A stretch of 64,000 nucleotides of DNA from Bacillus sp. DTU_2020_1000418_1_SI_GHA_SEK_038. Its GTDB lineage: Bacteria > Bacillota > Bacilli > Bacillales > Cytobacillaceae. Of the stretch, positions 16,692 through 46,122 are shown in pieces (position 1 is the stretch's first letter; each line of letters starts with the position of its first letter). Both the position numbers and the translations under genes were made by a program. Below the pieces are notes generated by a model, which was not told the origin of the DNA, made no database searches, and saw only the letters and a program-made list of their open reading frames with translations. The stretch is from NCBI RefSeq assembly GCF_032341175.1, contig NZ_CP135435.1:3224001-3288000 (forward strand). Direction: 5' to 3'.

Positions 16692-16815
16692 AACTGCACC
16701 TCCTCTTAGACTAAGACTCGCCATCGTCAGGCGTCTCACATCACTTGAAAGTAATGCAAAAACTTATGACCTGTTCTGAGCGGTTGTAGCACGGGTGCGC
16801 TACAAACATAACATG
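16692..16815 (-). promoter_or_regulatory. L21-type ribosomal protein leader
   Basis: The 5' untranslated region upstream of rplU contains a hairpin at its 5' end (TTGTAGCGC / GTGCTACAA on the minus strand), an internal region and the GAGACGCCTGACGATGGCGAGTC segment just before the Shine-Dalgarno site; GACGCC/GGCGAGTC can pair. Length, place and the GC-rich conserved blocks fit the L21 leader described for Bacillus, thought to bind L21 and lower expression of its own operon. I could not run a covariance model. Confidence 0.7.
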
Positions 16816-26409: not shown

Positions 26410-27489
26410 TTACATCGATTGATAAACTGAAAGGAATTCGAGCAAATGCTGTTGAACCTTTGTTAAAGCTGTAATATCTTTTGACTCTTTATATGCCAAT
26501 AATTGTTGATGGGCATGAGTTAGCTCATTATTTAATGAAAGAATCCCCTTGTTTTTTAGTTGATCTTCTTTAATCGACTTTATGCTTTCCATTTGGGCTG
26601 CTATTTTATCGATAATAGCATCTGATAATGTATGGGTCCTCGCCGCTTCCGATGCCCCCTCAGCTATAGCTTGATAAATGGCAGGCGCAGCATCGATTAC
26701 TTTTTTCTCCTCTGGAAGAAGCCCCTCTAGTGATTTCTCCTCTAATGTGACAGGCTTTGCAAAAGCTTCATAACCTTTATCTTTAAATTGATTTCCTATT
26801 TCCTTCGCGTCTTCAATACTTGAGGAAACACTTAAATAAAGTACGGCTTGTCCATTTATTTCAATTACCTTTGAAGGAATTCCTTTTTGTATATGATCCT
26901 CTTCAATTTGCCTTGCCGCTTCAATATTAGAAAATACACCGCCTTGAATAACAAAGGTTGATAGAGGCTGTAAAACACCTGTTTCTGTATCTGCAGGTTG
27001 TTTAATATCTTCCTCTACGGCTGGCTCGGCAGTTACAGGCTGTTCAATTTCGGCTGAATTTTCAGTTATGACTAGCTTTAGCATAATAAATCCAAAACCT
27101 GTCCCTAGTAAAATAGCGAAAAACACTGTAATGAATATGGACGTTAGAAATCCCTTATGCCCATTCTTTTTAAAGCTTTGGCCAAATGTTCTAATTCCCT
27201 TTTTATTAACAGTTTTCGTTTTTGTCGCTATATTATACTCTCTTAAATCAGGTTCAATCGCGTCCTCTGGAAGGATCCAATCAAAGCTATCATCTTCAGT
27301 CGTTTCCTTAGCTGCTGCCGATTCCTTAAATGATAAATCGTCCCATTTTTCTGTTCTGTTTTCCTCTCGTAAACTCTCAATTTTAATATCCTCTATATGT
27401 TTTTCTTCCACAAGGTTTTCTTCATAAGACCGTTGCTTGCCATTTATTTTTATCGTAATCGTTCTACCTTTTTCCGGGCCTTCCACCAT
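26410..27489 (-). CDS. spoIIB: Stage II sporulation protein B (SPOR domain)
   Basis: SpoIIB helps septal peptidoglycan thinning at the start of engulfment, together with SpoIIDMP. From ATG 27487-27489 (GGGGGA just upstream) the protein is 359 residues. It starts MVEGPEKGRTITIKINGKQRSYEE, similar to the ITVKINGK-type start of the family. It has an acidic cytoplasmic part, one membrane segment (about 120-145, FLTSIFITVFFAILLGTGFGFIMLKL region) and an extracellular SPOR domain (about 175-250, FVIQGGVFSNIEAARQIEEDH). The last 100 residues are helical. The longer frame to 27504 begins upstream of the binding site. Synteny with maf supports the call. Confidence 0.9.
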   Translation of the reverse strand: MVEGPEKGRTITIKINGKQRSYEENLVEEKHIEDIKIESLREENRTEKWDDLSFKESAAAKETTEDDSFDWILPEDAIEPDLREYNIATKTKTVNKKGIRTFGQSFKKNGHKGFLTSIFITVFFAILLGTGFGFIMLKLVITENSAEIEQPVTAEPAVEEDIKQPADTETGVLQPLSTFVIQGGVFSNIEAARQIEEDHIQKGIPSKVIEINGQAVLYLSVSSSIEDAKEIGNQFKDKGYEAFAKPVTLEEKSLEGLLPEEKKVIDAAPAIYQAIAEGASEAARTHTLSDAIIDKIAAQMESIKSIKEDQLKNKGILSLNNELTHAHQQLLAYKESKDITALTKVQQHLLEFLSVYQSM

Positions 27490-27540
27490 TCGTCCCCCTT
27501 CCATGTCGATTGCTGATTAAGTTTCATCCTAACATATCGA

Positions 27541-27575
27541 AAAAAAAAAATAACAAGACTTTTGTCGTCTTGTTA
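27541..27575 (-). terminator. Strong terminator at the end of the pilus operon
   Basis: TAACAAGAC and GTCTTGTTA form a perfect 9-bp stem with a 7-base loop; a run of ten T residues follows on the minus strand. It separates pilO from spoIIB. Confidence 0.92.
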
Positions 27576-27606
27576 CGGGGGATTTTCGTCAAATTTTTTA
27601 TAGTTA

Positions 27607-28362
27607 TTATTTAAGTGGAATTTCAATAACTTGACCTGTTTTGATATTTCCTGACATACTAAACGGGTTCTTTTTATTACTTGTATTTGGAACTTCCATT
27701 TTTGGCAGCTGATCAATTAAATCAGTTAATGTTGGCATGTAGAAGGCTGATATGGTGATTTCTGTCTCAATAGCCAATTTCTCTTGATCTGCAGAAATGA
27801 TTTCGTCCTGTCCATAAATTTGCAGATTTTCAACAATAATAGTTCTAGTTTCTGATTCAAGTGATTGTATGAATTTTTCCAAACTAAAATAATCGGCGGA
27901 CTTAACGGTTAGAACGACTGTTGTTTTTTTCATTCCTGCAGGCATTGGAATGCTTGGTTTTTCATCGGCCTTTTCTGCTGTTTCTTCATCGTCTGTTTCC
28001 TGTGTTTCTTCAGCTGATTCTTCTTCCAATTCGCTATCAGAAAAATCCATATTTGAAACAAGACTCCCTGACACAGTTTCTGCCTTTTCAATATCAAGTA
28101 GCAGCTGTTCTACTAACGGCTGCACAGGGATTTCCTTTTGGAGGGCTTCTGTGCTTTCGAACGTATCAGTTCCAGTTTCTTTAATTTGATTTTCTATAAC
28201 TGAAAGCAATTGTTCTTCTGTTTGCAATTCCCTTTGCTTATTAGCTAATGTGGTCTTTAATGGCTGGATATATAAAAAGTAGAGCCCGGTAAATAGTAAT
28301 ATTAATAGGATGATTCCTGTTATCCCGATGAGCTTTCCTTTTTTCGATGATAGAAGGGTCAT
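27607..28362 (-). CDS. pilO: PilO-like type IV pilus assembly protein
   Basis: PilO and PilN form the inner alignment complex of type IV pili, anchored by PilM. The 251-residue protein has one N-terminal membrane segment (about 10-33), a coiled-coil stretch (about 35-65) and a ferredoxin-like C-terminal region with MKKTTVVLTVKSADYFSLEKFIQSLES and RTIIVENLQIYGQ. An acidic insert of Glu and Asp (about residues 108-140) is unusual. The gene overlaps the 3' end of pilN by four bases and ends the operon. Identity rests on place and architecture, because PilO sequences diverge strongly. Confidence 0.8.
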   Translation of the reverse strand: MTLLSSKKGKLIGITGIILLILLFTGLYFLYIQPLKTTLANKQRELQTEEQLLSVIENQIKETGTDTFESTEALQKEIPVQPLVEQLLLDIEKAETVSGSLVSNMDFSDSELEEESAEETQETDDEETAEKADEKPSIPMPAGMKKTTVVLTVKSADYFSLEKFIQSLESETRTIIVENLQIYGQDEIISADQEKLAIETEITISAFYMPTLTDLIDQLPKMEVPNTSNKKNPFSMSGNIKTGQVIEIPLK

Positions 28363-28988
28363 GATTCTTCCCCTCCTTCATTGAAAGCCTCTTTTTTTAG
28401 GACAGACCGATTTAACATTACTTCATATTCAGCAAAATAACGCGGAAGAATTTGCTGCTCGTCTAAATCCAGCTTTTTTTCTTCGGCTTGATTGCTGTTT
28501 TTCTCTGTCAAATCGATTGTTGCCAGTTTAAGAATCATAGCCTCTTCCACCCAGTATGAATCAAGCAAGTTTTTTAAATAATAGGAGGCTTCCCGGCTTG
28601 TATCAAATTGCACGAGTACAACAATACTACCTGTTTCTTCATAAGAAAGGGTTTGGATAAATCCCCTTTCAGGCAATAAAGCAGTTAATTTTCTTAATAT
28701 AGGGACTGTTTTAATCGGGTAATCCTGAGCCCAATTAACAGCCTTATTTAGTTCTTCAACAGAATTTAAGGATTCTGCATCCATCATTTTCGCTTGTTCC
28801 GCAGCAATTAATTCCTGTATCACATTCTGCTGCTGTGTTATCGTTTCTATTTTCCCCTTATAGCCTTGTCCAAGCCAAATAGTCACCCCGATGCCGATTA
28901 ACACGATAAAAGCGAGTATCCCCATTAACAATAAAAGAGATGTATTTCTCGGTTCCTTTTTTGGAAGTAAGTTAATCTCAACGAGCAT
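28359..28988 (-). CDS. pilN: PilN-like type IV pilus assembly protein
   Basis: PilN links cytoplasmic PilM to PilO across the membrane. The 209-residue protein begins MLVEINLLPKKEPRN; the INLLP motif is the peptide that docks into PilM in other species. A membrane segment (about 18-40) follows, then a coiled coil and a C-terminal domain with TALLPERGFIQTLSYEETGSIVVLVQFDT. The start lies two bases after the pilM stop and the end overlaps pilO by four bases. Confidence 0.88.
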   Translation of the reverse strand: MLVEINLLPKKEPRNTSLLLLMGILAFIVLIGIGVTIWLGQGYKGKIETITQQQNVIQELIAAEQAKMMDAESLNSVEELNKAVNWAQDYPIKTVPILRKLTALLPERGFIQTLSYEETGSIVVLVQFDTSREASYYLKNLLDSYWVEEAMILKLATIDLTEKNSNQAEEKKLDLDEQQILPRYFAEYEVMLNRSVLKKEAFNEGGEES

Positions 28989-28990
28989 GC

Positions 28991-29968
28991 TTACACCTCT
29001 TTCAATGCAAGCCCCAGAGTTAGATAATGTGATCGAGGCAAATTATCTTCTGTTGCTAAATGAATGATTTGATGTGGAATTTCAAACCTCGTTTGTATTT
29101 CTTTTTCGATTAGATCAAGGTATGGATGGTCGCCATTTAACAATATTTTAGACACATGCTGTTTTCCTTGATTAATCGAATAACGATAGAAGTCCATAAA
29201 CTTACTAATCTCTTTATAGATGTCTTCCAATTGAAAAGACAATTCTTCTAATTCTCCATTAAATTCTATCTCCTGCATTCCTATCTTACTCGTTCTATAC
29301 GTCCATTGATCTTCATCAAAATCAATCATTAAGTGATGCATAAAAAGAGGAAGCTGGTTTTCAAAGATACATAGATTGACCATATTTAAGTCAAAATGGA
29401 TCATTAATAGCCGTTCATCCTTCGCAGGCATTCCTAAACGATCATAAAGCCGGTATAGGGACAGTGGAGAGATATCCGCTGCCACTGGGGCCAATTTTAT
29501 ATTCGTAAATAAAGAGGAATAATCTAATATGTTTTCTTCCTGCGCAGCAAATATTAATACTTCCTTGTTATCCTTATTTTTATTTACGATATACGTATCA
29601 AAAACAGGTTCATCAAACGGGAGATGTATACTAGTGCCAAGTTCCAAATATAAATATCCATTGATTTCATCATCCTTAACATCCACAGGTATGTTAGCCT
29701 TACGGATAATCACGAATGAATCCGGAACGATGAAACGAACGGAACGCTTTTGAATTTTCCAATCAGTTATACACTCTTCAAGTATTGTTTCTAAAGTGTC
29801 ATGATCAATAATTTTCCCGTCTCGAACAATCCCAAACGGAATAAACCGCTCTCCCCATCTGTGGACGCTAAGCGGATTCGATTGCTTCAATTCGACAAAC
29901 CGAATCGAATAGTCATTAATAACGATATTAATGATACGGTTTTTTCGCGAAAAAAGGGAAAGTGCCAT
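28991..29968 (-). CDS. pilM: PilM-like type IV pilus assembly protein (actin-like)
   Basis: PilM is a cytoplasmic actin-fold protein that binds the PilN N-terminus. The 325-residue protein starts FSRKNRIINIVINDYSIRFVELKQ (phosphate-binding strand pair). It includes the family-typical region RSVRFIVPDSFVIIRKANIPVD and the second lobe with KILLNGDHPYLDLIEKEI. The nucleotide motifs are weak, as in many PilM of Gram-positive species. It lies between pilD and pilN. Confidence 0.87.
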   Translation of the reverse strand: MALSLFSRKNRIINIVINDYSIRFVELKQSNPLSVHRWGERFIPFGIVRDGKIIDHDTLETILEECITDWKIQKRSVRFIVPDSFVIIRKANIPVDVKDDEINGYLYLELGTSIHLPFDEPVFDTYIVNKNKDNKEVLIFAAQEENILDYSSLFTNIKLAPVAADISPLSLYRLYDRLGMPAKDERLLMIHFDLNMVNLCIFENQLPLFMHHLMIDFDEDQWTYRTSKIGMQEIEFNGELEELSFQLEDIYKEISKFMDFYRYSINQGKQHVSKILLNGDHPYLDLIEKEIQTRFEIPHQIIHLATEDNLPRSHYLTLGLALKEV

Positions 29969-29989
29969 CGAATAAACCCCTAACTAAAT

Positions 29990-30745
29990 TCAAGATGCCA
30001 ATAACTTAAAGTAACTTTGGATAATAAAATCACCATAAAAATAAGCGGTCAATGTTCCTGCAGCGATAAATGGACCAAATGAAATTGGATTTTTCCTTTT
30101 CAGTTTTCCGATCAATAACCCAATTATACCAAAAACCGCCCCGTACAAGGTTGCTAGAAAGAAAGATAGCAGAACGATTTTCAAACCAACCACTAGTCCT
30201 AACAAAGCAAAGAGCTTAATATCCCCGCCGCCCATTCCACCTTTGCTAATAATGGCAATCAAAAGCAGAAGAAAAAATCCGACAGCCGCTCCCAATACGG
30301 AATCCCACCAAGGATGAAGTGGGATAAAAATCCGTTCCAACAAAAAAAGCCCTGTGAAAAAAAGCAGTACTTTATCAGGGATAATCATATACGTGATATC
30401 TGAAACGAAAATAATCATAAATAATGAAATTAATGTCCAGGCGACAAACAGCTCGCTTGACCAGCCAAGGATTAATGGTGCCGCTACAAATAGCAGTCCT
30501 GTCAGCAGCTCCACAAATGGGTAAAGAGGAGAAATGCGCGTCTTGCATTGGCGGCATTTCCCTCCTTGGATAAGGTATGACAGAACTGGGATCAGTTCAT
30601 AAGGCTTGAGCTGATGTTTGCATTTTGGACAGGCTGACCGCGGTGCCACAATGGATTGGTTTTTTGGGACGCGGAGGCCGATGACGTTGTAGAAGGAGCC
30701 AAATATTACACCGATTATTAAAATATAGATTAAAAGAAAGTGCAT
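29990..30745 (-). CDS. pilD: Prepilin peptidase / N-methyltransferase PilD (ComC counterpart)
   Basis: PilD cuts prepilin leaders and methylates the new N-terminus. The 251-residue polytopic membrane protein carries the methyltransferase-domain zinc cysteines Cys39, Cys42, Cys64 and Cys67 (CPKC and CRQC) and the two catalytic aspartates in FVSDITYMIIPD (about residue 116) and GGMGGGDIKLFALLGL (about 177). In B. subtilis the only pilus-type gene at this chromosomal place, between spoIIB and folC, is comC, the prepilin peptidase needed for competence. This gene is therefore probably its counterpart and may serve both this pilus and any competence pseudopilus encoded elsewhere. Confidence 0.94.
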   Translation of the reverse strand: MHFLLIYILIIGVIFGSFYNVIGLRVPKNQSIVAPRSACPKCKHQLKPYELIPVLSYLIQGGKCRQCKTRISPLYPFVELLTGLLFVAAPLILGWSSELFVAWTLISLFMIIFVSDITYMIIPDKVLLFFTGLFLLERIFIPLHPWWDSVLGAAVGFFLLLLIAIISKGGMGGGDIKLFALLGLVVGLKIVLLSFFLATLYGAVFGIIGLLIGKLKRKNPISFGPFIAAGTLTAYFYGDFIIQSYFKLLAS

Positions 30746-30777
30746 TGGCTAACACTCCTTTATTTTTATTAATTTCT

Positions 30778-31227
30778 TTAACTATTTGAATGTTTATCGA
30801 ATTGTTGTGAATTAACCTTATTAAGATCACCCACAAATTTAGTCCCTGATACCTCACCCTTCGCTTGATGTTTTGATGTTGCATCAATAGTAATTTTCCC
30901 ATCAGGTGTTATAGTCACTGTCCAAGCTGATAGATTTGCATCAGTTATTTCTATATATTCTTTGAATTTTTTGTCAGTATCAGTATCACCATTTGAATAC
31001 CCTGTGCTAACACTAGGAGTACCATTAGCCGCTATAAATAACTTTCCTGCAGAAAGTAATTGAACAGCATCTGCTTTTGCTGCATCATACTTTGATTTTG
31101 CCATAATATTCCCAATACTAGGAACCGCAATCGCCGCAATAATCCCCAAAATAACTACAACTGCCAATAACTCAACCAACGTCAACCCACGCTGATCCTT
31201 CAATCTTTTTCCAATCATCTTAAACAT
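30778..31227 (-). CDS. pilA: Major type IV prepilin
   Basis: The 149-residue precursor has a 14-residue leader ending in Arg-Gly, with cleavage before Leu15 in QRG|LTLVELLAVVVILG, Glu at mature position 5, and the hydrophobic N-terminal helix ending PSIGNIMAKSKYDAAKADA. The mature protein of 135 residues has a small globular head with Gly, Thr and Asp but no cysteine. Placement between pilC and pilD, with its own 100-bp upstream gap, suggests this is the most abundant pilin of the locus. Major status is inferred, not shown. Confidence 0.88.
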   Translation of the reverse strand: MFKMIGKRLKDQRGLTLVELLAVVVILGIIAAIAVPSIGNIMAKSKYDAAKADAVQLLSAGKLFIAANGTPSVSTGYSNGDTDTDKKFKEYIEITDANLSAWTVTITPDGKITIDATSKHQAKGEVSGTKFVGDLNKVNSQQFDKHSNS

Positions 31228-31333
31228 ACAAATCTCCCTCTCTATTAATTATGTAATATGACATAAGACCTACTTATAATTATACTTGAAGCTAAATAAA
31301 ATAAAAGATAAAAATGTTAATATTTTGCAAACA

Positions 31334-32539
31334 TTACCCTACCTGATTAAATATATCAAACATCGGCACCATAATAGATGTCACAATCGTTCCGACAATG
31401 CCAGCAAGAAATACAATCATTATCGGTTCGATAAGAGACTTGATTCTATCTGTACTGTTTTCTACCTCTTTTTCATAGAAATCAGCTACTTTCCCTAGCA
31501 TAGCATCAAGGGAACCTGTTTCTTCTCCGATGACAATCATTTGTGTTACCAAGGGAGGAAAGGCCCAGTGCTTTTTCATTGGCTCTGTAATAGATTGTCC
31601 CTTTTCAAGAGCGGTTCTAGACTCGCGTATAACTTTAGCGATCACTTCATTATCTACTACCCTTTCAACGATTGTCATTGCCTGTAAAATGGGAACAGAA
31701 CTAGTAAATAACGAGCTTAATGTTCTTGTCATCCTTGCCAATACTGCCTTTTGAAGCATCTTTCCGAAAATAGGAATTCTCAAAATAAAGTAGTCTAAAT
31801 AATATTTCGTTTGAAGGTTTTTCCGCAATAAAACAATCGTTATGACAAACCCTATAAAAAGTAAAACAATTAACCACCAAAACCTCTGCATAATCTCACT
31901 TGAATTTAAAACTAATCTCGTTATTGCAGGCAGCTCCCCGCCAAAATCTTCAAACATGGCAACAAATGTAGGGACAACTGATACTAATAGGAAAATAACA
32001 ACCCCTATAGCTACAATACCAACAACAATCGGGTAAGCGAGCGCAGATGAAATCTTCTGCCTTGTATTATGCTGTTTTTCAAAATGTTCCGCAAGTCTGT
32101 CGAGCGTTTCATCCATATTACCGCCAGCTTCACCAGCGCGGACCATATTAATAAACATGGGCGTAAAGATTTTTTTATGTTTGGCTGCTGCTTCTGACAA
32201 TGGATTTCCTTCACGGAGGTCCTGCTCAATATCAAGCAGGGCTTTTTTCAATGCTTTACTCTCCGTTTGAGCAGATAGTATTTTCGTAGAATCAACTACG
32301 GAAACCCCTGCCTTTAAAAGTGTTGAAAACTGTCTTAAATAAATGACAAAATGCTGAAGCTTTACTGGATTTCCAATGGAAATATCTTTTGTAAGCATCG
32401 ATTCAGGGACTTCGGTAATTTCTAAAACCCTGATTCCATCCTCCCTCAGCTTAAACATTGCTTCCCTTTTGGAGGACGAGTTAATAACACCTTCTATTTT
32501 TCCTTTGCGGTCTCTTCCGGAATATTTAAACCGAGCCAT
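31334..32539 (-). CDS. pilC: PilC, inner-membrane platform protein of the type IV pilus
   Basis: PilC is the membrane platform on which the PilB and PilT motors act. The 401-residue protein has two T2SF repeats (about 67-190 and 270-395), each with a cytoplasmic helical bundle and membrane segments; typical sequences are VRAGEAGGNMDETLDRLAEHFEKQ and IVIGEETGSLDAMLGKVADFYEKEVE. The N-terminal MARFKYSGRDRKGKIEGVINSSS is standard for GspF/PilC. It abuts pilT upstream. Confidence 0.95.
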   Translation of the reverse strand: MARFKYSGRDRKGKIEGVINSSSKREAMFKLREDGIRVLEITEVPESMLTKDISIGNPVKLQHFVIYLRQFSTLLKAGVSVVDSTKILSAQTESKALKKALLDIEQDLREGNPLSEAAAKHKKIFTPMFINMVRAGEAGGNMDETLDRLAEHFEKQHNTRQKISSALAYPIVVGIVAIGVVIFLLVSVVPTFVAMFEDFGGELPAITRLVLNSSEIMQRFWWLIVLLFIGFVITIVLLRKNLQTKYYLDYFILRIPIFGKMLQKAVLARMTRTLSSLFTSSVPILQAMTIVERVVDNEVIAKVIRESRTALEKGQSITEPMKKHWAFPPLVTQMIVIGEETGSLDAMLGKVADFYEKEVENSTDRIKSLIEPIMIVFLAGIVGTIVTSIMVPMFDIFNQVG

Positions 32540-32540
32540 A

Positions 32541-33581
32541 TTAAATCAATATCTCCTGTAAAAATGGCTCCGCGGTTTCCTTCGAAATTATCCCTGTTTG
32601 AATAAGATCCTTGATGCTGCTTTCAAGCGTATGCATTCCTTGCGCACGGGATGTTTGCATAATGCTGACAATTTGATGAATCTTTTCATTTCGTATAAGA
32701 TTCGCTACAGCCGAATTATTAATTAAAATTTCTGTTGCCGCTTTACGCCCTGCCTGATCTTCTCTACGGAACAATCGCTGGGAAATAACCGCAACAAGAA
32801 CAGAAGCAAGCTGAATTCGAATTTGTGGCTGCTGTTCAGGTGGAAAAACATCGATAATCCGGTTAATTGTTGCTGGGGCACTTGATGTATGCAATGTACC
32901 CAACACTAAATGTCCTGTTTCCGCTGCAGTAATCGCAGTTTGAATCGTTTCCAAATCGCGCATCTCACCAACTAAGATAATGTCAGGATCCTGACGAAGT
33001 GCAGCCCTTAGCCCATTCGCAAAATTCCTTGTATCAAAGCCAACTTCACGCTGGTCAATTATAGAATTCCCATGCTTATGCAAATACTCAATCGGATCCT
33101 CAAGTGTAATAATATGCTTTCTCATTGAGTCATTCATATACTGGATCATCGAAGCAAGAGTTGTTGATTTACCACTGCCTGTCGGACCTGTAACTAGAAC
33201 GAGTCCTTGTGGCTTTGCAGCAATTTTCCGTAAAATATCGGGTAATTCAAGTTCATCAATCGTAGGAATTCTTGTAGGAACAACCCGTATCGCCATCGCA
33301 ATACACGATCTTTGATGATATGTATTTACACGAAATCTCGAAACGCCAGGAATCCCATATGAGAAATCCAATTCGCCCTTGTCCTTAAACTGCTCCCACA
33401 TATGTTCTGGAATAATCGCTCGTGCCATACCTTCAGTCTCTTCCGGCTTTAATGAATCTTTCCCGTATTTCTTCAGATCGCCATTAATTCTAAAGATTGG
33501 CTGAATACCTACAGTTAAATGCAAATCTGATGCTTTTAATTCAAATGCGGCGCGTAATAAATAATCTATTTTTTCCTTCAT
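32541..33581 (-). CDS. pilT: PilT, pilus retraction ATPase
   Basis: PilT is the hexameric ATPase that disassembles the pilus and causes retraction and twitching. The 346-residue protein starts at ATG 33579-33581 (AGGGG eight bases upstream). It shows Walker A GPTGSGKSTTLASM, the Asp box ITLEDPIEYLH, Walker B DIILVGEMRDLETI, the His box GHLVLGTLHTSSA, and the C-terminal PilT signature region beginning at SRAQGMHTLESSIKDL. Its presence means that the pilus is expected to be retractile and not a simple pseudopilus. Confidence 0.95.
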   Translation of the reverse strand: MKEKIDYLLRAAFELKASDLHLTVGIQPIFRINGDLKKYGKDSLKPEETEGMARAIIPEHMWEQFKDKGELDFSYGIPGVSRFRVNTYHQRSCIAMAIRVVPTRIPTIDELELPDILRKIAAKPQGLVLVTGPTGSGKSTTLASMIQYMNDSMRKHIITLEDPIEYLHKHGNSIIDQREVGFDTRNFANGLRAALRQDPDIILVGEMRDLETIQTAITAAETGHLVLGTLHTSSAPATINRIIDVFPPEQQPQIRIQLASVLVAVISQRLFRREDQAGRKAATEILINNSAVANLIRNEKIHQIVSIMQTSRAQGMHTLESSIKDLIQTGIISKETAEPFLQEILI

Positions 33582-33592
33582 TCCTCGCACCC

Positions 33593-35254
33593 CTATTCAA
33601 GTATAGCGACTCGTAATACTTCTTCAGTAGTTGTTAGTCCTTGTTTTACCTTAAGAAGACCATCATCAATAAGGAAAATTGTCTTATTTTTAATGGCTAA
33701 CTCTCTTAATTTAGTAATAGAATCCCCATTCATAATTGTTCTTCTAATATCATCGCTGACGACAAGTACCTCATGAATAGCAATCCTGCCCTTGTAGCCC
33801 GTCATATTACAAGATGAGCAGCCGCGCCCGCGCGTGATTTTGTCTACACTCATCCCTCTTTTTGCAAAAATCTCTATTTCTCGTTTAGAAGGTGCATTTT
33901 CCTCTGCACAATCTCGGCAAATTCTTCTAACAAGCCTTTGAGCGACAATTCCGCTAAGAGACGAGGCAACTAGAAATGGCTCAACTCCCATATCCATTAA
34001 TCTAGTAATTGTACCAATAGAATCGTTCGTATGGAGGGTACTCAATACTAGATGCCCTGTAAGGGAAGCTCGAATGGCGACTTCCACTGTTTCCTTATCC
34101 CGAATCTCACCGACCATAATAATATTTGGGTCTTGGCGTAGAATAGATCGCAATCCTGCTGCGAATGTCATCCCGATATTGGAATTTACTTGAATTTGAT
34201 TTACGCCCTCAAGCTGGTACTCAACTGGGTCTTCAATCGTAATAATATTCACTTCTTCACTATTTAACTGATTTAATGCCGCATATAAAGTCGATGATTT
34301 CCCAGAACCTGTAGGGCCTGTTAACAGTACAATTCCAGTAGGCTTTTCGATCATCTCCATAAATCTTTTTAAGTTTAATTTATTGAAACCAAGCTTATTA
34401 ATATCATTTAAAGAACTGCCTAAATCAAGAATCCGCATAACAATTTTTTCCCCAAAAACAGTGGGCAGTGTCGAAACACGCAAATCTACAGGGTGAAAAT
34501 CAAGATTGACTTTAATTCTCCCATCCTGTGGGACGCGGTGCTCGGTGATGTCCAAGTTTGCGATTATCTTAATTCTAGCAGTTAGCACACTCTGCATATG
34601 CTTCGGTAAAACCCGTTCAACCCTTAGTACACCATCTATTCTGTAGCGGACAACAACCTTCGTTTCTTGCGGATCAATATGAATATCACTTGCCTTCATC
34701 GCTACTGCAGTCGACAAAATTTGATTCACTAATTTCACTATTGGTGAATCCTGATCAGTAATTTTCTCTTCTTGAACCATCTCAGTTGGCTGATTATCAA
34801 CTAGTAACTCTTCAAAGCCTTCATCAATGTCATAATACTTATTAATGGCTCTTAAAATATCGTCTTTCGTAGCAATCGCAGTCTCAATTTGAAAGCCAGT
34901 TGATAGACGCAGATCATCAATTGCAAAAAAATCCATCGGGTCTGCCATCGCGACAAACAGCTTGTCCCCATCTTTTTTTAATGGAATAAGAAGCTGGCGT
35001 TTTGCTGTTTCTTTCGGAATAATATTGAATAGCTTTGTATCAAAAGGATACCGGTACAAGCTAATATGTGGAATACCAAGCTGGAATTCAAGTACTTCAA
35101 TAAGCTGCTGCTCTGTTATGTATCCCCTTTGAAGCAAGGCATCCCCAAGCTTTTGTCCATCACTTTTTTCCTTTAAAGTCAGAAGGAGCTGATCTTCTGT
35201 AATAAGACCAGCATATACAAGTAAATCTCCAAGCCGCTTCCGAATTTGTTTCAT
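33593..35254 (-). CDS. pilB: PilB, pilus extension ATPase with N-terminal MshEN-type domain
   Basis: PilB powers pilus polymerisation. The 553-residue protein has an N-terminal MshEN-type region (about 7-62) with two tandem half-motifs, RLGDLLVYAGLITEDQLLLTL and KLGDALLQRGYITEQQLIEVL, the kind that binds c-di-GMP in MshE. A second N-terminal domain follows (about 70-150). The ATPase core has Walker A GPTGSGKSSTLYAALNQL, Asp box ITIEDPVEYQLEGV, Walker B NIIMVGEIRDKETVE and the tetracysteine CRDC...CSSC. It lies just upstream of pilT. Nucleotide-messenger binding is inferred from motif only. Confidence 0.95.
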   Translation of the reverse strand: MKQIRKRLGDLLVYAGLITEDQLLLTLKEKSDGQKLGDALLQRGYITEQQLIEVLEFQLGIPHISLYRYPFDTKLFNIIPKETAKRQLLIPLKKDGDKLFVAMADPMDFFAIDDLRLSTGFQIETAIATKDDILRAINKYYDIDEGFEELLVDNQPTEMVQEEKITDQDSPIVKLVNQILSTAVAMKASDIHIDPQETKVVVRYRIDGVLRVERVLPKHMQSVLTARIKIIANLDITEHRVPQDGRIKVNLDFHPVDLRVSTLPTVFGEKIVMRILDLGSSLNDINKLGFNKLNLKRFMEMIEKPTGIVLLTGPTGSGKSSTLYAALNQLNSEEVNIITIEDPVEYQLEGVNQIQVNSNIGMTFAAGLRSILRQDPNIIMVGEIRDKETVEVAIRASLTGHLVLSTLHTNDSIGTITRLMDMGVEPFLVASSLSGIVAQRLVRRICRDCAEENAPSKREIEIFAKRGMSVDKITRGRGCSSCNMTGYKGRIAIHEVLVVSDDIRRTIMNGDSITKLRELAIKNKTIFLIDDGLLKVKQGLTTTEEVLRVAILE

Positions 35255-35277
35255 ATATTATCCCTGCTTTTTCGAAA

Positions 35278-36582
35278 TTATTTCATTTGTTCGTAAGATT
35301 TGCCCCAAAGGTCACTATTCGATTCAATTACTCCATTAGTCTCCTTTGCATCGTCAATTTCTGGTTGATTACTGTTTTGAGGACCCTCATCTGTAGACTC
35401 ACTAGGCGGGCTCTCACTGCCAACTGCATCATTGGTAAGAAGACCATACACATCTATTTGATGAATAGGGGGATAATAATCTTCAGATATCACTTCACTT
35501 ATTAGGAGAGCCCCTTTTTCATCATAAATCTCACGAATAACTTTAATGAATAATCCTTCTTTTCCTTGTCTCTCAACTACCTTTTCACCAGGTTTTAATA
35601 GATTATTATATTGCTTAATAATTTTAGGCTTAAAGCTTTGCTCATCCTTTGTAAGTACAGCATACTTATTTAAAAAGGACTTCCCTTTCAGCGAAAGGAT
35701 TAACGTATTGTCAATAGATTCCATATTAATTTCAAATGGCACTTCATTCGGATTAGCAAAAATAAGATCTATATTTTTTTGTGAATCTACTTTTGCTTCA
35801 AAACCTATTGGGATATATCCCGGCTTTTCAATGCCGATATTTCTTTCAATAATAGCAAAATTAGTCGGCAAAATTAATTGATAGATTCCAGAAGATATGG
35901 CATTTATGGCTTCTGCAGACTCGTTCTTAAGTCCCTTTTCTTCTATCAACTCAAGCAGTGAGAACCTTTTATTAGCTGGAATCTCAATTGTGGAAAGTTT
36001 ATCCAATATACTGCTAAAATAAATTGTATCTGTTTTAACTTGAACCTCTTGAATAACAACATCTTCGTTAGTACCTGAACCTGTAATATAGTCTTCAAGC
36101 TTTAATTCAAGTTGCTCAGATTGTAAAAGTGTTGCACTTTTTAACAAGTCTGTCTGTAATTTCTCAAAGTCAATAGATTGGGAATCTATTGCTGGGTAAG
36201 AATTCAAGATAGCATCTTCTAGAGTGTACTCTTCAAAATGAACATTAACCAAATTCTCTTGCCCATTTTGTGCTGTATTAACTGATTCCATAACATTAAA
36301 ACGAAACAAAGCATTGTCTAACTGGATCTGACTTTCTTTAAAACGAATATTTATAACCATATCATCTAACCAAATGGTCAGCTGCTCGTCTACCGCTCTC
36401 ATCGCCTCTGATTCAGTTTTGTCTGAAATATTAACATTTCCAACCATTGTATTCTCATCAAAGGTGTCAATGTTATTTAACATCAAATTAAAGGCGGAAG
36501 CTCCATAGTGTGAGAAGGCGAAGATAAAAAAAGTACAAAGGAAAAGCACAATAAAAATTTTAACGCCCTGCTTGTTTTTCAC
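35278..36582 (-). CDS. Membrane-anchored protein with degenerate VanW-like domain, pilus-locus associated
   Basis: The 434-residue product has a membrane anchor at about residues 8-28 and otherwise lies outside the membrane. Residues about 205-310 resemble a VanW domain: RFSLLELIEEKG, then SSGIYQLILPTNFAIIERN, PGYIPIGFEAKVD, and DLIFANPNEVPFEINMES. The usual GGGICQVSS core is replaced by ISSGIYQLI, so the conserved glycines and cysteine are lost. After it comes a short G5-like beta region (VVERQGKEGLFIKVIREIYDEKG) and an acidic, Ser/Pro-rich tail. Its place directly upstream of pilB, with a 24-base gap, argues for a pilus-related job, perhaps at the cell wall. The function is unknown. Confidence 0.7.
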   Translation of the reverse strand: MKNKQGVKIFIVLFLCTFFIFAFSHYGASAFNLMLNNIDTFDENTMVGNVNISDKTESEAMRAVDEQLTIWLDDMVINIRFKESQIQLDNALFRFNVMESVNTAQNGQENLVNVHFEEYTLEDAILNSYPAIDSQSIDFEKLQTDLLKSATLLQSEQLELKLEDYITGSGTNEDVVIQEVQVKTDTIYFSSILDKLSTIEIPANKRFSLLELIEEKGLKNESAEAINAISSGIYQLILPTNFAIIERNIGIEKPGYIPIGFEAKVDSQKNIDLIFANPNEVPFEINMESIDNTLILSLKGKSFLNKYAVLTKDEQSFKPKIIKQYNNLLKPGEKVVERQGKEGLFIKVIREIYDEKGALLISEVISEDYYPPIHQIDVYGLLTNDAVGSESPPSESTDEGPQNSNQPEIDDAKETNGVIESNSDLWGKSYEQMK

Positions 36583-36613
36583 CTAGCCGACTCCCCTTTG
36601 ATCTGCTTATCAC

Positions 36614-37438
36614 TTACTTATGAAATATAAGTTCTTCTATCTCGATTTCTTCATTCAAATCGGATTTTTCCTTGTTAACTTTTTCTAATAGAACCTCTTC
36701 AGTAAACACAATTTCCTCTATTTCTTCCATGACTGGTTGAGGAACAGGTTCAATTGTATTAGGCATATCTTCTGTTTCCTTATCCCCTATATCATTTCCT
36801 TCAAGTAATTTCTCAATTTCCGACATATAGGTGTTTTCAGTTTGATTTCCTGGATACTCTCTATTACTCACGTCTTCATTAGTACTGATATTTGCCACCC
36901 GATTCTCAAGAAATGAAACATCCTCATCAAAGTCTAGAGGATCTTCAGGTGTTTTAGTTTCAGTAACTTTTTGTTCATGTAGTTCCTCTCCAGCCTGTTC
37001 TTCCTCGTAGGGGGAATATTCTAGTTCCTTTAAGTCATCCTCTTCTTGAGGAATCTCGATTGCTGTAGCTGCCTCATTTAGTACAAGCGGTAAAGTTTCT
37101 TTTTCTATGACTATATTTGGTTTCTTATCTTCTCTATGTAAAGTTTCTTTTTCTAAGGAAATAATTTCCTCGTCTACTATTTTAGAATCAACTTTCTTTA
37201 AGGCAGTTTCCACTATTCGTTTCTCTAACAAAAGGGATACTAACAAACAAAGCAGAGAAATAATCAATATCGTTTGATACAATGGGAATTGCATATTAGC
37301 CAATAGTCCTACATTTGCTAATAAAAATGCAACACCAATTATCCCTAGTTTCCATTTCCATGAAAACCCCATCGGCAATAAAAACATAATGGGCGCAAGA
37401 ATTAACAACGAAACTATCAAAAATATAACAGTTATCAT
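36614..37438 (-). CDS. Unrecognised membrane protein with long acidic cytoplasmic tail, first gene of the pilus operon
   Basis: I do not recognise this family. The 274-residue protein has three or so hydrophobic segments in the first 65 residues (1-20, 27-45, 52-66) and then about 205 residues rich in Glu, Asp, Ile and Val, with low-complexity segments such as EEIEEIVFTEEVLLEKVNKEK. The tail is probably disordered or helical. A GGGGG/AGAGGA purine stretch precedes the ATG. It is the promoter-proximal gene of the minus-strand pilus operon and is divergent from the minor pilin operon. A scaffolding or localisation role is possible but nothing in the sequence shows it. Confidence 0.75.
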   Translation of the reverse strand: MITVIFLIVSLLILAPIMFLLPMGFSWKWKLGIIGVAFLLANVGLLANMQFPLYQTILIISLLCLLVSLLLEKRIVETALKKVDSKIVDEEIISLEKETLHREDKKPNIVIEKETLPLVLNEAATAIEIPQEEDDLKELEYSPYEEEQAGEELHEQKVTETKTPEDPLDFDEDVSFLENRVANISTNEDVSNREYPGNQTENTYMSEIEKLLEGNDIGDKETEDMPNTIEPVPQPVMEEIEEIVFTEEVLLEKVNKEKSDLNEEIEIEELIFHK

Positions 37439-37657
37439 TCCTCTACACCCCCATGAGAATTATAATCCCAATTTATCACAAAAACCGCAGGAAAAATGTT
37501 ACAGATTATCAAAACCTACTAAAAAAGACCTAAAATAAAACATATAATGGATGATACATATTGTATAATAAAAGTGGGTATTTAGGAAGATTATTAATGT
37601 GTGACTTTTCTAGTATTCCATTAATATGCAATCGACCTCAAAAGGAGGTAATATGTT

Positions 37658-38086
37658 GTGCATTGTGATAATCAAAAAGGATTAACCTTGGTAGAAGTAC
37701 TACTATCTATTGTTATTTTGACGATAATCCTCGGTACTATTATTAAATTTTTCCCCCAAATGGGAATGATGAACAAACAGAATGAGATTAAACAGGAGGC
37801 AGTGAATATTGCAAAAGAAATATTAATTGATTGGCAGAATAAAGGGGATGACCTGAAGAAATTCCTTACTAATCCGTCTAGTAATGTCCTTCCTGGATAT
37901 AGCCATAATGATGACAAATATTTTTATTTTAATGAAACAAAAGGAAATTTAAATATTGAAGTAAAAATTAGAAAGAAACCTGATTTAGACGGTTATCCCT
38001 CTAAAGCTTATCTCGTTCATATCAAACTTAAAAATAATCAAGGAAAAAAAATAAGTGAAACTTATGGATACATAATTGTTATCTAG
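37658..38086 (+). CDS. Minor prepilin 1 (class III signal, GspI/PilV-like place)
   Basis: The 142-residue precursor starts at GTG 37658 (AAAGGAGG nine bases upstream; an in-frame stop lies just before). A leader of eight residues ends in Lys-Gly, with cleavage at QKG|LTLVEVLLSIVILT and Glu at mature position 5. The mature protein has the N-terminal pilin helix and a small beta-rich head with a C-terminal Tyr/Ile-rich strand. It is first of three plus-strand genes overlapping or nearly so, divergent from the main pilus operon. Similar sets of minor pilins form the initiating tip complex in other species. Confidence 0.87.
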   Translation: MHCDNQKGLTLVEVLLSIVILTIILGTIIKFFPQMGMMNKQNEIKQEAVNIAKEILIDWQNKGDDLKKFLTNPSSNVLPGYSHNDDKYFYFNETKGNLNIEVKIRKKPDLDGYPSKAYLVHIKLKNNQGKKISETYGYIIVI

Positions 38087-38096
38087 GGGGATGGCA

Positions 38097-38537
38097 ATGC
38101 TTAAACAAAATCAAAACGGACTTACTTTAATTGAATTGCTTGCAATAATTTCTATCTTGTCAATTGTAGGTGTAATAATATGGAGTGTGTTTTTCCAAGG
38201 TGTAAAATATTCTAATAATGCTGTAACAAGAAACCAAATGCAACAGGAAGCTAATATTATTACTACAAAACTGAAAGAAATTCATCTAACCTCTGAAAAA
38301 TATTCTATTGTTTCTAACAATGGCATAATTGCAGTAACCTATGATGATAAAAATGGTACTTCACAAGAAGTAATTTTTGAAAATAGTAATTTAGAATTTT
38401 CATCTACATCCATAAATAATAGAATTCCAAAAGAAACTGATACTCGATTTACTCTTATTGTAACTGACAAGGATTCAGGCAATTCACATTCAATCACCAC
38501 CCTTCTATACCGACTGAAAGGGGGAAATAATAAATGA
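38097..38537 (+). CDS. Minor prepilin 2 (GspJ/PilW-like)
   Basis: The 146-residue precursor starts at ATG 38097, six bases after AGGGGG; upstream in-frame starts would include the ribosome-binding site. The leader ends NQNG with cleavage before LTLIELLAIISILSIVG, and Glu is at mature position 5. The mature head has features of the PilW/GspJ group: an N-terminal helix followed by NQMQQEANIITTKLKEIH and a beta-sheet head. It begins ten bases after minor pilin 1 and overlaps minor pilin 3 by four bases. Confidence 0.86.
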   Translation: MLKQNQNGLTLIELLAIISILSIVGVIIWSVFFQGVKYSNNAVTRNQMQQEANIITTKLKEIHLTSEKYSIVSNNGIIAVTYDDKNGTSQEVIFENSNLEFSSTSINNRIPKETDTRFTLIVTDKDSGNSHSITTLLYRLKGGNNK

Positions 38538-39802
38538 TCGTTGAAAATGAAAAAGGTTATACACTTGTTGCTGTACTTTTGACCGTGACAATATTTATGC
38601 TTCTTGCTTTTTCATTTATGGGACAAGCAGCAAATAGTATGAAACAGAATAAGGCTGTGGAAACGAAATCCCAGTCAGTGGCTCTTGCTGAAATGGGGGT
38701 TACTTATTTTCAGCATGCCATCCAAAATATATTTAAATCCAATTATCAATCTATCGTCCAACAGGTTAAATCTATACGTGAGAGCGATAAAATAAAAAGA
38801 ACAAATGATGAATATACACAAATTGCTATGAATTTAATGAAGGATATAATAAAAAATGAATTAAATCCAACCGCCATTTCAATTGATGATAACCCAGGAG
38901 CAAATTTCTCGATACAATATAATAAGAACTCAAATCTTAAACAAGATGGAAAAGTGCTTAAGATAGATTTTAAAAGTATTGGTACCGAAAATGGAAAAAT
39001 CACTACGATTGAAACTGTTATGAATATTGATTTTAGCGAGTTAATGAGTGACAGTGGGACCGGAGAGACTGGTAATACCGGTGTACAAAATGCTATTTTA
39101 CCTTCTGGTAATGACATTCCGGACCCAGGAAATTTAAGTGCTTGTGATAATGATAATAAGAAGGTTGATTATTCAAATATTAAATGTCAAGTAAATGGTA
39201 GCGATAGCTATGATAATAACGATCAATTAATCTTTAATAATTCTATTTTTAAGGTTACCGGTGCACTTTCTCTTCCTCAAATGAACAAGGACATAATTAA
39301 TTCTACATTATATGTACTTGGAAGTATGACTACTGGGAATATGAATAGTCTTACCCATTTAAAATTACATGTTAATGGAGCTGGTCATTTTGGTCACTTT
39401 AATGGAAGCGGATTAACTGATTCAATAATTGAGATTGGTGGAAATGCTAAATTTGATAATATGAAACTTTTGCGGTCTACTATTTATGTTGGTGAATATA
39501 AAGCAAATTTTGGACAAATTAACGGAATGGAGAACTCTGTAATTTTCGTTAATTCTGATACAGATATAAAAGGTCTCGATATTGGAAGTAACTCCACAGT
39601 TTGTGTTAATGGATTTCTAAAAATCGAAAATAATTTTAATAGCAATTCAAATAGTAAAGTCTATGCTAAAAATAGCAATAACAATAATGTAATAAAAGGT
39701 GATGCGGCTTTTAAAGATGGTGGTGCGTGTTCGAGAAAATCTGGATCTCTAATATCTTGGGGCGATCTCTCGATATATGCGGACTATGATTATAAATATT
39801 AG
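38534..39802 (+). CDS. Large minor prepilin (PilX/GspK-like N-terminus) with long Gly/Asn-rich beta domain
   Basis: The 422-residue protein has an eight-residue leader and a prepilin-like site EKG|YTLVAVLLTVTIF, but Ala takes the place of Glu at mature position 5, as in GspK-type tip pseudopilins. An N-terminal helix (to about 60) is followed by a helical region and, from about residue 195, a C-terminal domain of roughly 225 residues with short repeating strands rich in Asn, Gly, Ser and Val (for example LKLHVNGAGHFGHFNG, IIEIGGNAKFDNMK, STIYVGEYKANFGQ). This looks like a beta-helix or bactofilin-like fold. All four cysteines are in this C-terminal part. It closes the minor pilin operon. A tip or adhesive role is inferred. 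Confidence 0.82.
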   Translation: MIVENEKGYTLVAVLLTVTIFMLLAFSFMGQAANSMKQNKAVETKSQSVALAEMGVTYFQHAIQNIFKSNYQSIVQQVKSIRESDKIKRTNDEYTQIAMNLMKDIIKNELNPTAISIDDNPGANFSIQYNKNSNLKQDGKVLKIDFKSIGTENGKITTIETVMNIDFSELMSDSGTGETGNTGVQNAILPSGNDIPDPGNLSACDNDNKKVDYSNIKCQVNGSDSYDNNDQLIFNNSIFKVTGALSLPQMNKDIINSTLYVLGSMTTGNMNSLTHLKLHVNGAGHFGHFNGSGLTDSIIEIGGNAKFDNMKLLRSTIYVGEYKANFGQINGMENSVIFVNSDTDIKGLDIGSNSTVCVNGFLKIENNFNSNSNSKVYAKNSNNNNVIKGDAAFKDGGACSRKSGSLISWGDLSIYADYDYKY

Positions 39803-39848
39803 CTCAACTTTCCCACATATTATTAACACAAATTTTTATCACTATTAT

Positions 39849-39876
39849 AAAGACCCCCAAAACCTTGGGGGTCTTT
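39849..39876. terminator. Bidirectional terminator between minor pilins and diguanylate cyclase
   Basis: AAAGACCCCCAA and TTGGGGGTCTTT form a perfect 12-bp stem with a short loop. T residues follow on the plus strand, and TTTATAATAG follows on the minus strand. Confidence 0.92.
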
Positions 39877-39877
39877 C

Positions 39878-41593
39878 CTATTTCACATACTCCGCCACCC
39901 GGTTCCTGCCCGCTCTCTTCGCTCCGACATACAACGCTCGGTCGGCGTGGCGGATTAGGGCAAGCGGTTCATCGGCATCTTGAGGGGCTGATGCCACTCC
40001 GATGGAACCAGTGATATGAACTTGCTGTGGTTGGTCCCGTTTATCGATATGCTGGGTTAGGAGGAATGGATGGTTAGCGATGGCTTGTCTGACTGTTTCA
40101 GCAATTTTTACAGCATTGCTTTTCTTAACGTCTGGGAGAAGGATCACGAACTCTTCTCCACCATATCGTGCAACCATGCCCTTATCGCCGATTAAATCCA
40201 TTAGGACATCTGCTAACTGGCAAAGGATTTCATTCCCGCTTTGATGCCCATACATATCGTTAACAGCTTTAAAGTGGTCAATATCAAGGATGATCAGGGA
40301 GATTTCTTCCCGCACATTTTGCAATATTTTTTCGAATTCGGTGCTTAAAAAGTTCTCAAAATAGCGATAATTGTAAAGCTTAGTTAAAGCACAGCGTTCA
40401 CTTTGTGCTTTTGTTTTTTCATAATTTCTTGCATTTTCGAGTGCTATGGCAAAGTGGGAGCATAGAATATCAACGATCATTAGCTGAGATTTTTCATAGG
40501 CCCTTTTCCCAGAAGATGCTAAGAATAGTACCCCAACGGCCTCGCTATTACGGACAATCGGCATACTTAAAACGCTTTCGACCTTGTCAGGCATATAGCC
40601 TTTCACAATATTCTTCCACTCTTTTTGCGAGCTGAAAAGTGCCGCTTTCTTCTGTTGCCAAACAAGGCCGCTAATCCCTTCACTTTTCCTGAGCGGCTCC
40701 ATTTTAGAACATTTTATTACTCCCTTTTCAACCTGACGAATGATTTGTAATTCCTCATTATCAATGATATCGAGAATATAGGCATAATCGACAGGCAGCA
40801 TTTCTGTCAGCTTCTGAATAAATAAATCCAGTACCTCATCTACATTTAATCTTTCTGCCAGCTGATGGCCGATTTCTGTCGCGCTTTGCAATAATTTATT
40901 TATTTTTCTGCTAGAGTAATATAAATTCAAAATAACTGAAAGGCTGGCAAATGGAATTCCGACAAAAATAAGCGCAACGAGTCCCAATTCTTTATATAGA
41001 ATAAAAAGTACAAAACCCATCGGGAAAGTAATAATTGTTGTAATAGTTTCCCAAATAAAATCAATTCCAAATGTCTCCCGTTTCCCATTATAAAGAACCA
41101 AATTAATGATCCAAATAAAGAAATGATTGAAAACATAATAGAGAATCGGATAAATAGGGATCAGCCAAAAAGAATGATCGATGTCCGCTAATCTTGCACC
41201 AGGGCTGCCGCCAAGCATGTAATAAGTTGCACCGCTCAGGAAAGAAACGAACATAAACATAAGTGAATTTAAAGGAATCCGAAAAAATTGTTCTTTTGGT
41301 AATTTAACTCTTATGAATAAAACAATTATCGTTAACTGAAGAATAATCAATTCAACAAACAAGCCGAATGTTAAAAATACAGCCCAGGCGACCCACTGTA
41401 TTAAAAAAATAGGTGATCCGTTTATAATCATTGGAGTTGCTGCTACAAAGAACGCAAGAATTAGAAAAACGATAATGTCAATTTCATGTCCAGCTATATG
41501 AGGCGGGTATAATTGATAGATTAGCCATAGACTGGGTGGGAATATGAAGAGCCACAGCCCCCAAATCATCTTTTTCTTTATAGCACTTATCAT
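39878..41593 (-). CDS. Membrane diguanylate cyclase (multi-TM, GAF, GGDEF)
   Basis: This protein should synthesise c-di-GMP. The 571-residue product has about eight hydrophobic segments in residues 10-230, a GAF-like domain (about 255-395, including VLDLFIQKLTEMLPVDYAYIL and VLSMPIVRNSEAVGVLFLAS) and a C-terminal GGDEF domain (about 400-570). The active-site motif is GGEEF in VARYGGEEFVILLP, with LTKLYNYRYFENFL and DIDHFKAVNDMYGHQSGNEIL as usual. There is no RxxD inhibitory site at the expected place before GGEEF, so product inhibition through that site seems absent. It lies convergent with the minor pilin operon and upstream of folC on the minus strand. Confidence 0.93.
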   Translation of the reverse strand: MISAIKKKMIWGLWLFIFPPSLWLIYQLYPPHIAGHEIDIIVFLILAFFVAATPMIINGSPIFLIQWVAWAVFLTFGLFVELIILQLTIIVLFIRVKLPKEQFFRIPLNSLMFMFVSFLSGATYYMLGGSPGARLADIDHSFWLIPIYPILYYVFNHFFIWIINLVLYNGKRETFGIDFIWETITTIITFPMGFVLFILYKELGLVALIFVGIPFASLSVILNLYYSSRKINKLLQSATEIGHQLAERLNVDEVLDLFIQKLTEMLPVDYAYILDIIDNEELQIIRQVEKGVIKCSKMEPLRKSEGISGLVWQQKKAALFSSQKEWKNIVKGYMPDKVESVLSMPIVRNSEAVGVLFLASSGKRAYEKSQLMIVDILCSHFAIALENARNYEKTKAQSERCALTKLYNYRYFENFLSTEFEKILQNVREEISLIILDIDHFKAVNDMYGHQSGNEILCQLADVLMDLIGDKGMVARYGGEEFVILLPDVKKSNAVKIAETVRQAIANHPFLLTQHIDKRDQPQQVHITGSIGVASAPQDADEPLALIRHADRALYVGAKRAGRNRVAEYVK

Positions 41594-45777: not shown

Positions 45778-46122
45778 AACAAAAAACCCCACTCGTCATA
45801 AAAGGACGAATGGAGTTTGCTTCGCGGTACCACCTTTTTTTCAACCGAAAATAGAAATGCGGATGCGGCTTTATTTAAAAAGCATCTGCAATCTACATTT
45901 GATTGACTCTTAACTAGATAACGGATTTCCCGTCCTTCACTACTCGAAAATACATTCTTTCATGAAAGAAGCTCAAGGGCGACCTTCCAACGGTTCTGCT
46001 TAGAAAACCTTTCAGCTAATAGTTTTCCTCTCTTTAAGCAAATGGCCATCGTACTCTTCCCTGTCGTAGCTGTTCATTTATAATTGTCTAGATTTAGCGC
46101 CTAGCGCCTATACTTTTCTTTA
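45778..46122 (-). promoter_or_regulatory. T-box riboswitch leader of valS
   Basis: On the minus strand the leader contains AGTACGATGG in the stem I base, a long stem I with GGAAAAC/GTTTTC pairing, and the diagnostic T-box GGTGGTACCGCG (complement at about 45822-45836). It is followed by a terminator of ACTCCATTCGTC pairing with GACGAGTGGGGT and then TTTTTT. Uncharged tRNA-Val would stabilise the antiterminator. The valine specifier codon could not be placed with certainty by eye. Confidence 0.93.

Follow-up and report, generated by a model that had tools for sequence, protein, structure and literature searches.

A type IV pilus locus at the place of comC in a Bacillus genome and the probable origin of the lone prepilin peptidase gene

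The stretch of DNA analyzed here, which we call the window (64,000 nucleotides of contig NZ_CP135435.1, assembly GCF_032341175.1, positions 3,224,001 to 3,288,000, forward strand), carries a cluster of type IV pilus genes in the interval between spoIIB and folC. The initial annotation of the window stated that the same interval of Bacillus subtilis holds only comC, the prepilin peptidase gene, and offered two histories: either the cluster was inserted, or B. subtilis kept only the peptidase from an ancestral locus. We asked which history the sequences favor. Loci of relatives that are reduced to the peptidase, a sample of the class, and a tree of the flanking genes support the second history and disfavor the first. 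We consider it very probable that the cluster is an ancestral type IVa pilus locus that has kept its old place and that the lone comC is a relic left after loss of the other genes. Publications are cited by PMC number, in each case for excerpts of the text.

An apparently intact pilus locus lies between spoIIB and folC

The spoIIB-folC interval of the window is occupied by the pilus cluster, with every named gene an open reading frame at the coordinates listed here (scores in bits, with model cutoffs in parentheses; aa, amino acids; TM, transmembrane).

26410..27504, minus strand: spoIIB (flank); SPOR domain 21.2 bits (cutoff 21); position before maf
27550..27576, minus strand: terminator-like hairpin 3' of pilO; consensus match, with 16 such sites found versus 10.6 expected in shuffles
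27607..28362, minus strand: pilO-like alignment protein, 251 aa, one TM helix, after pilN; T2SSM 26.2 bits (cutoff 27.8), T2SSM_b 21.3 bits (cutoff 21.7)
28359..28988, minus strand: pilN-like alignment protein, 209 aa, one TM helix; assigned by position, with homologues in relatives between pilM and pilO
28991..29968, minus strand: pilM; PilM_2 71.3 bits (cutoff 27), TIGR01175 88.4 bits (below cutoff 133)
29990..30745, minus strand: pilD prepilin peptidase, equivalent of comC; A24_N_bact 116 bits, Peptidase_A24 70 bits
30778..31227, minus strand: pilA, major pilin candidate (G|LTLVE); N_methyl and TIGR02532 above cutoff
31334..32539, minus strand: pilC platform protein; T2SSF 223 bits
32541..33590, minus strand: pilT retraction ATPase; TIGR01420 485 bits (cutoff 319); solved PilT chains matched, with expectation values (E) down to 7.7e-106
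33593..35254, minus strand: pilB extension ATPase with an MshEN cyclic di-GMP (c-di-GMP) domain; T2SSE 452 bits, MshEN 77.6 bits, NF053729 57.5 bits (cutoff 38); matches MshE 5htl
35278..36582, minus strand: membrane-anchored VanW/G5 protein (vanW); VanW PF04294 29.9 bits (cutoff 27); G5 fold in model
36614..37438, minus strand: tm274, 274-aa protein with three N-terminal TM helices, from hydropathy
37658..38086, plus strand: minor pilin 1 (G|LTLVE); N_methyl above cutoff; GTG start, uncertain
38076..38537, plus strand: minor pilin 2 (G|LTLIE); N_methyl above cutoff; TTG start, uncertain
38534..39802, plus strand: minor pilin 3, tip candidate, 422 aa, Ala at +5; modeled beta-solenoid inserted in the pilin fold
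39878..41593, minus strand: GAF-GGDEF diguanylate cyclase (GGEEF), adjoining folC; GGDEF 141 bits
41678..43000, minus strand: folC (flank); TIGR01499 415 bits (cutoff 163)

Ten minus-strand genes follow one another in the order tm274-vanW-pilB-pilT-pilC-pilA-pilD-pilM-pilN-pilO, either overlapping or separated by 1 to 106 bp. This spacing and the terminator-like site after pilO fit a single ten-gene operon from tm274 to pilO, from which the three overlapping minor pilin genes on the plus strand diverge. The gene content and the unchanged flanking order described in the initial annotation were both borne out.

PilB and PilC scored above the Pfam cutoffs for T2SSE and T2SSF, and PilT clearly passed the curated TIGR01420 model. 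Within the PilM-N-O set, whose positions are conserved in relatives, PilM was above its cutoff and PilO gave two matches just below theirs; PilN, assigned by its position and one TM helix only, had no match in Pfam or NCBIfam. Three pilins have the class III N terminus recognized by N_methyl, and an A24 prepilin peptidase is present. Minor pilin 3 gave weak NCBIfam matches, all below cutoff, and no Pfam match, and tm274 matched no Pfam or NCBIfam family. In a motif scan, both motors had intact Walker A and His-box motifs, and by eye we read their Walker B regions as DPDIILVGEMRD and DPNIIMVGEIRD and the aspartate motifs of PilD as SDITYMIIPD and GMGGGDIK. PilB and PilD each have CxxC pairs. 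No solved relative of PilD was found by sequence at an E of 0.001. Disrupted motor genes, which the initial annotation had named as grounds for rejecting function, were not found; both motors are full length. We read the cluster as an apparently intact monoderm type IVa pilus locus with a retraction motor.

A search of the whole genome (4.47 Mb, one contig) gave a single Peptidase_A24 match, the pilD gene of the cluster. The secretion-ATPase family gave eight matches; the five strongest, which were examined, are pilB, pilT, comGA in two pieces, and a tad locus, and no second pil locus was found among them. PilB together with PilC and PilM-N-O would extend the fiber and PilT would retract it, and the retraction that the initial annotation read from pilT is a fair inference. 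PilD would process the cluster's own pilins and presumably those of ComG too, no other prepilin peptidase having been found.

Lone peptidases in relatives stand at the place of the cluster

Thirty-five genomes of the Genome Taxonomy Database (GTDB) family had weak or no PilT (34 below the cutoff and one poor match), and the loci of the 33 with a peptidase were fetched. In 25 of these loci, pilD lies between folC and maf without a pilB, pilT, or pilC frame, and 13 of the 25 retain pieces of pilA, pilC, pilT, pilM, pilN, pilO, or the minor pilin genes. The other eight comprise clusters broken by frameshifts or a contig end (L129, L133, and L135), loci that could not be assigned (L127, L151, and L156), and reduced loci with folC out of view (L136 and L153). 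In the pooled set, relic frames occur in 15 of 40 reduced loci. Cytobacillus horneckiae, for example, retains a piece of pilC, and C. purgationiresistens retains pilM-N-O with pieces of a pilin gene, minor pilin genes, and pilC. Taken as a test of the relic reading, these loci give both signs looked for, a lone peptidase at the place of the cluster and pil remnants in other reduced loci.

The same place recurs across the class. Our class sample consisted of 151 genomes, with folC positions from 142 genomes listed among the 150 with a match; PilT was above cutoff in 94 of the 151 and the peptidase N-domain in 118. In at least 82 genomes, a listed folC has pilT or pilD no more than 20 kb away. 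Among the folC matches listed, at least 54 genomes have both genes (spanning at least 22 family codes), 9 have pilT only, and 19 have pilD only, while 22 of the 151 have neither gene at the cutoffs used. Eleven of the 19 pilD-only genomes belong to one family, and the four loci fetched (L167 to L170) have folC, a lone peptidase gene, and radC in succession, which we take to be the arrangement of Staphylococcus.

We assembled 141 loci, including that of the window, and removed 5 duplicates and 9 loci at other places before counting states. Another eight had frameshifts, contig ends, mixed content, or a short peptidase and were left unassigned. Of the 119 assigned loci (76 full and 43 reduced), the 94 with all three flanking genes, encoding Maf, RadC, and MreB, entered the flank tree (58 full and 36 reduced). 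At least 14 state changes are needed on this tree; its starred branches force 13 of them, and 200 bootstrap trees gave 14 to 14. With three full loci of other families as the root, the tree can be explained by 14 losses and no regain. Because reduced loci were favored in choosing the set, the figure of 14 applies to this set and is not a rate. PilB/T/C distances between loci correlated with flank distances (Pearson 0.72, 58 loci), and the nearest rows to the window were Bacillus sp. FJAT-29937 and C. praedii in both the flank tree and the PilB/T/C tree.

On these sequences, the lone comC of B. subtilis is best explained by pilus loss with pilD retained. The locus would have been inherited from an ancestor older than Bacillaceae and would still stand between folC and spoIIB/maf, and its loss, 14 times in the sampled tree, would have left pilD alone, most likely because the Com pilus needs PilD. 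Repeated loss of a motility-type pilus seems to have left comC alone in B. subtilis and many relatives, where it was probably kept because a second pilus depends on the peptidase. The results suggest that Bacillaceae had such pili ancestrally and that this state is still common among them. We found no statement that comC is a relic of a pil locus in the open-access search listings and excerpts examined; one study omitted prepilin peptidases from further analysis as exchanged between systems (PMC6668835).

Several observations weigh against this account. Twelve of the 25 reduced family loci show no pil remnant, and in Bacillus anthracis comC is elsewhere and spoIIB stands alone between folC and maf (PMC7232415), so a comC relic can move or be replaced; our confidence is slightly lower because of these two points. 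For 39 of the 151 class genomes, the listed folC is distant from pilT or pilD or sits on a different contig, and for another 8 no folC was listed. The root of the flank tree consists of three long-branched rows, and the program warns that two long branches meet there. In the comparison of gene order and pil phylogeny proposed in the initial annotation, the folC-linked place is conserved; of the starred flank splits, the PilB/T/C tree recovered only 17 of 35 and the PilD tree 28 of 59. Because the pil and flank trees agree only partly, some transfer among relatives is possible. The proposed reason for keeping PilD would not be operating in the genome of the window unless a prophage leaves, because comGA is interrupted there (see below). 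The pilus, its expression, and any motility are predictions from the genes. Finally, no c-di-GMP riboswitch reached the Rfam gathering score within the window, in contrast to Clostridium difficile, where such a riboswitch controls the main pilus operon (PMC11656802).

The cluster is common in relatives

PilT was above the curated cutoff in 159 of the 193 genomes of the GTDB family and in 22 of 36 genomes of the window's own genus. We also examined 80 named loci picked by their PilD likeness: 57 have whole pilB, pilT, and pilC frames; of the rest, 16 are either reduced or truncated where the contig ends, and 7 have mixed content or belong to another type. Among the 57 full loci, 55 have maf or radC downstream and 16 have folC in the fetched stretch; they include loci of Cytobacillus, Robertmurraya, Mesobacillus, Neobacillus, Anoxybacillus, Rossellomorea, Metabacillus, and Domibacillus. 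The locus of Bacillus infantis (L052) has the same core genes followed by spoIIB and maf. Loci of Alkalibacillus, Piscibacillus, Filobacillus, and Allobacillus (L111, L112, L118, L120, and L124) have pilB, pilC, pilD, and pilM, with no match to pilT, vanW, or folC/maf in the fetched stretch, and are apparently pil loci of another type at another place.

The initial annotation had presented the cluster as a novelty unless it proved common and well described in close relatives, which is what we found; the cluster is real but common and belongs to a kind of operon that is already known. Pil operons were reported in 2011 in Geobacillus, Exiguobacterium, and Bacillus sp. NRRL B-14911 (Imam 2011, PMC3244431), the last of which later became B. 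infantis (PMC9765702). The Bacillales operons of these two papers are of the same kind as the cluster, a number of them with pilT, and pilT is present in a significant number of Gram-positive pil operons (PMC3244431). The excerpts mention neither the place of comC beside folC nor a loss of the cluster. According to the same paper, most Gram-positive bacteria with pilT also have a second pil operon without pilT; here we found one pil locus. Pilus genes of Cytobacillus have already been published, since six type IV pilus proteins and a twitching protein are listed for a genome of that genus (PMC11371855).

The Com pilus is interrupted by a prophage

A comG operon elsewhere in the genome, for which the initial annotation had proposed a search, is present, but its comGA gene is split. 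A prophage of approximately 42 kb (about 3017770-3059700 of the same genome, G000:C1) interrupts comGA in the His box, after TGH and before LVLST. It carries portal, terminase, head, DnaB, and endolysin genes, and a serine integrase gene adjoins the break. With comGA split, the Com pilus is expected to be inactive unless the phage is excised. Relatives of the integrase at an E of 1e-90 were found in 18 of the 193 family genomes, the window's own included, and in 8 of the 18 (the own genome and 7 others, with 50 to 75% identity) a piece of comGA lies beside the integrase. In five of the seven others, the first comGA piece extends to residue 246, and the fetched stretch showed no second one. The remaining two show the reverse, a second piece that begins at its first residue, with no first piece found. 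These genomes point to a recurrent group of prophages that target comGA, apparently with a common break point. In Staphylococcus pseudintermedius, too, a prophage has been described in comGA (PMC7029219).

The B. subtilis Com pilus needs no Pil homologues other than PilB, PilC, and PilD (PMC3244431), and in that species the comG genes lie away from the lone comC. The genome of the window also has a tad-like (Flp pilus) locus with a CpaF-like ATPase (L012, 2715-9327, read by eye); no second Peptidase_A24 was found in the genome.

Alternative explanations

The interruption of comGA raises the alternative that the pilus of the cluster serves mainly for DNA uptake and replaces the Com pilus. The likeness of minor pilin 3 to ComZ, a DNA-binding pilin, points somewhat in the same direction. 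We regard this reading as unlikely.

We judge it very unlikely that B. subtilis shows the original state, a lone comC beside which one or more later insertions placed the pil cluster. Insertion would be consistent with the partial congruence of the pilus-protein and flank trees, and the pil cluster of clinical isolates of Paenibacillus thiaminolyticus has been described as a mobile insertion (PMC9765702). At the site of the whole cluster in the isolates, the reference strain carries no more of pilB than its first 60 codons (PMC9765702), a stump that loss would leave too. The remnants beside pilD, the folC-linked full clusters across the class, and the sufficiency of losses for all 14 changes on the flank tree stand against insertion.

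A decaying or silent remnant in this strain is highly improbable. Fourteen of the 36 genomes of its own genus have no PilT above the cutoff, but all core frames of the cluster are open and full length with intact motor motifs, and the same genes are present in FJAT-29937, where PilB, PilT, and PilC are 92% identical to those of the cluster. We give almost no credence to a type II-like secretion pseudopilus in place of a pilus: the best NCBIfam score of PilC is GspF (383.7 bits, cutoff 424) and PilB scores nearly as well with GspE (608.8 bits, below its cutoff) as with the PilB equivalog TIGR02538 (621.9 bits, just below its cutoff of 676), but PilT exceeds its curated cutoff, whereas type II systems are without PilT (PMC9765702), PilM is present, and no cluster protein matched a secretin model.

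The VanW/G5 gene goes with the pilus

Full and reduced loci amount to a natural experiment that sorts pilus genes, such as that of the VanW/G5 protein, from neighbors, such as the cyclase gene. In the Bacillaceae-like set, vanW was present in 59 of 60 full loci and in none of 40 reduced loci; the association is partly confounded by adjacency, since one deletion can remove pilB and vanW together, which makes the 0/40 figure less telling than the 59/60 figure. Outside that set, 7 of 16 full loci match the vanW of the window. In paired tests on the tree, vanW agreed with the pilus in 11.9 of 13 pairs on average (median p about 0.0005). These results indicate that the VanW/G5 gene goes with the pilus, adjacency explaining part of the pattern.

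The protein might hold or guide the machine in peptidoglycan. We suggest, as a tentative proposal that we think somewhat less likely to be right than wrong, that it is an unrecognized type IV pilus subunit of Bacillales. It would consist of a membrane anchor and three domains (an N-terminal one resembling peptidoglycan-binding domains, VanW, and G5) and would either fix the machine in the thick cell wall or make a passage for it through the wall. If so, it would do for one-membrane cells what the wall-binding partners of the secretin do in two-membrane cells. We aligned 45 of 49 homologues with at least 85% coverage. B. subtilis YoaR is a VanW-family protein, and the cluster protein has the VanW domain and a possible peptidoglycan-binding domain in common with such proteins. 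The genome has a second VanW gene (G000:C1:955165-955551, 172.5 bits, open frame of 310 aa); compared with it, the VanW of the cluster is divergent (31.6 versus 172.5 bits in the genome search) and lies inside the pil operon. A published section on pili-linked families mentions one from the candidate phyla radiation (CPR) that combines a peptidoglycan-binding domain with vanW (PMC6744442). Two other papers that came up as linking VanW and pili were discarded, since "VanW" in the excerpts is a personal name (PMC4704652 and PMC13234629).

The diguanylate cyclase is not specific to the pilus

PilB passes the MshEN c-di-GMP motif model NF053729 and matches both MshE 5htl and PilB chains, and this domain probably couples extension to c-di-GMP. 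PilB2 of Clostridium perfringens likewise has a c-di-GMP-binding motif (PMC11656802). The initial annotation had also counted the neighboring diguanylate cyclase as a member of the pilus set, and this assignment did not stand. Among loci with folC in view, 6 of the 20 full ones and 18 of the 38 reduced ones have the cyclase gene (Fisher p 0.27). Paired tests on the tree, with 12 independent pairs, gave a mean of 2.4 the same way and 3.1 the other way, with no trend. The cyclase gene lies 84 bp from folC on the same strand and may be cotranscribed with it. The enzyme could supply c-di-GMP to PilB, though it cannot be counted as the pilus's own regulator.

A possible likeness of minor pilin 3 to ComZ

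Minor pilins 1 to 3 probably form the tip of the pilus, with the beta-solenoid of minor pilin 3 as a putative binding head. The model of minor pilin 3 has a predicted local distance difference test (pLDDT) score of 77 and a predicted template modeling (pTM) score of 0.52. ComZ of Thermus thermophilus (6qvi; PMC6561018) is a GspK-like pilin that lacks Glu at +5 and contains an inserted beta-solenoid; minor pilin 3 likewise has no Glu at +5, and its model shows a putative beta-solenoid insertion. Matches to ComZ and to S. sanguinis PilA span residues 40 to 422 and 31 to 422 of minor pilin 3, respectively; Foldseek gave nothing under 0.001. The alignment of the protein covers 12 of 17 homologues. 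The C-terminal domains of the tapirins of Caldicellulosiruptor (6n2b and 4wa0) are also among the closest known systems.

Elsewhere in the window, Rfam matches mark a T-box leader at 45799-46076, 5' of valS, and an L21 leader at 16704-16795.

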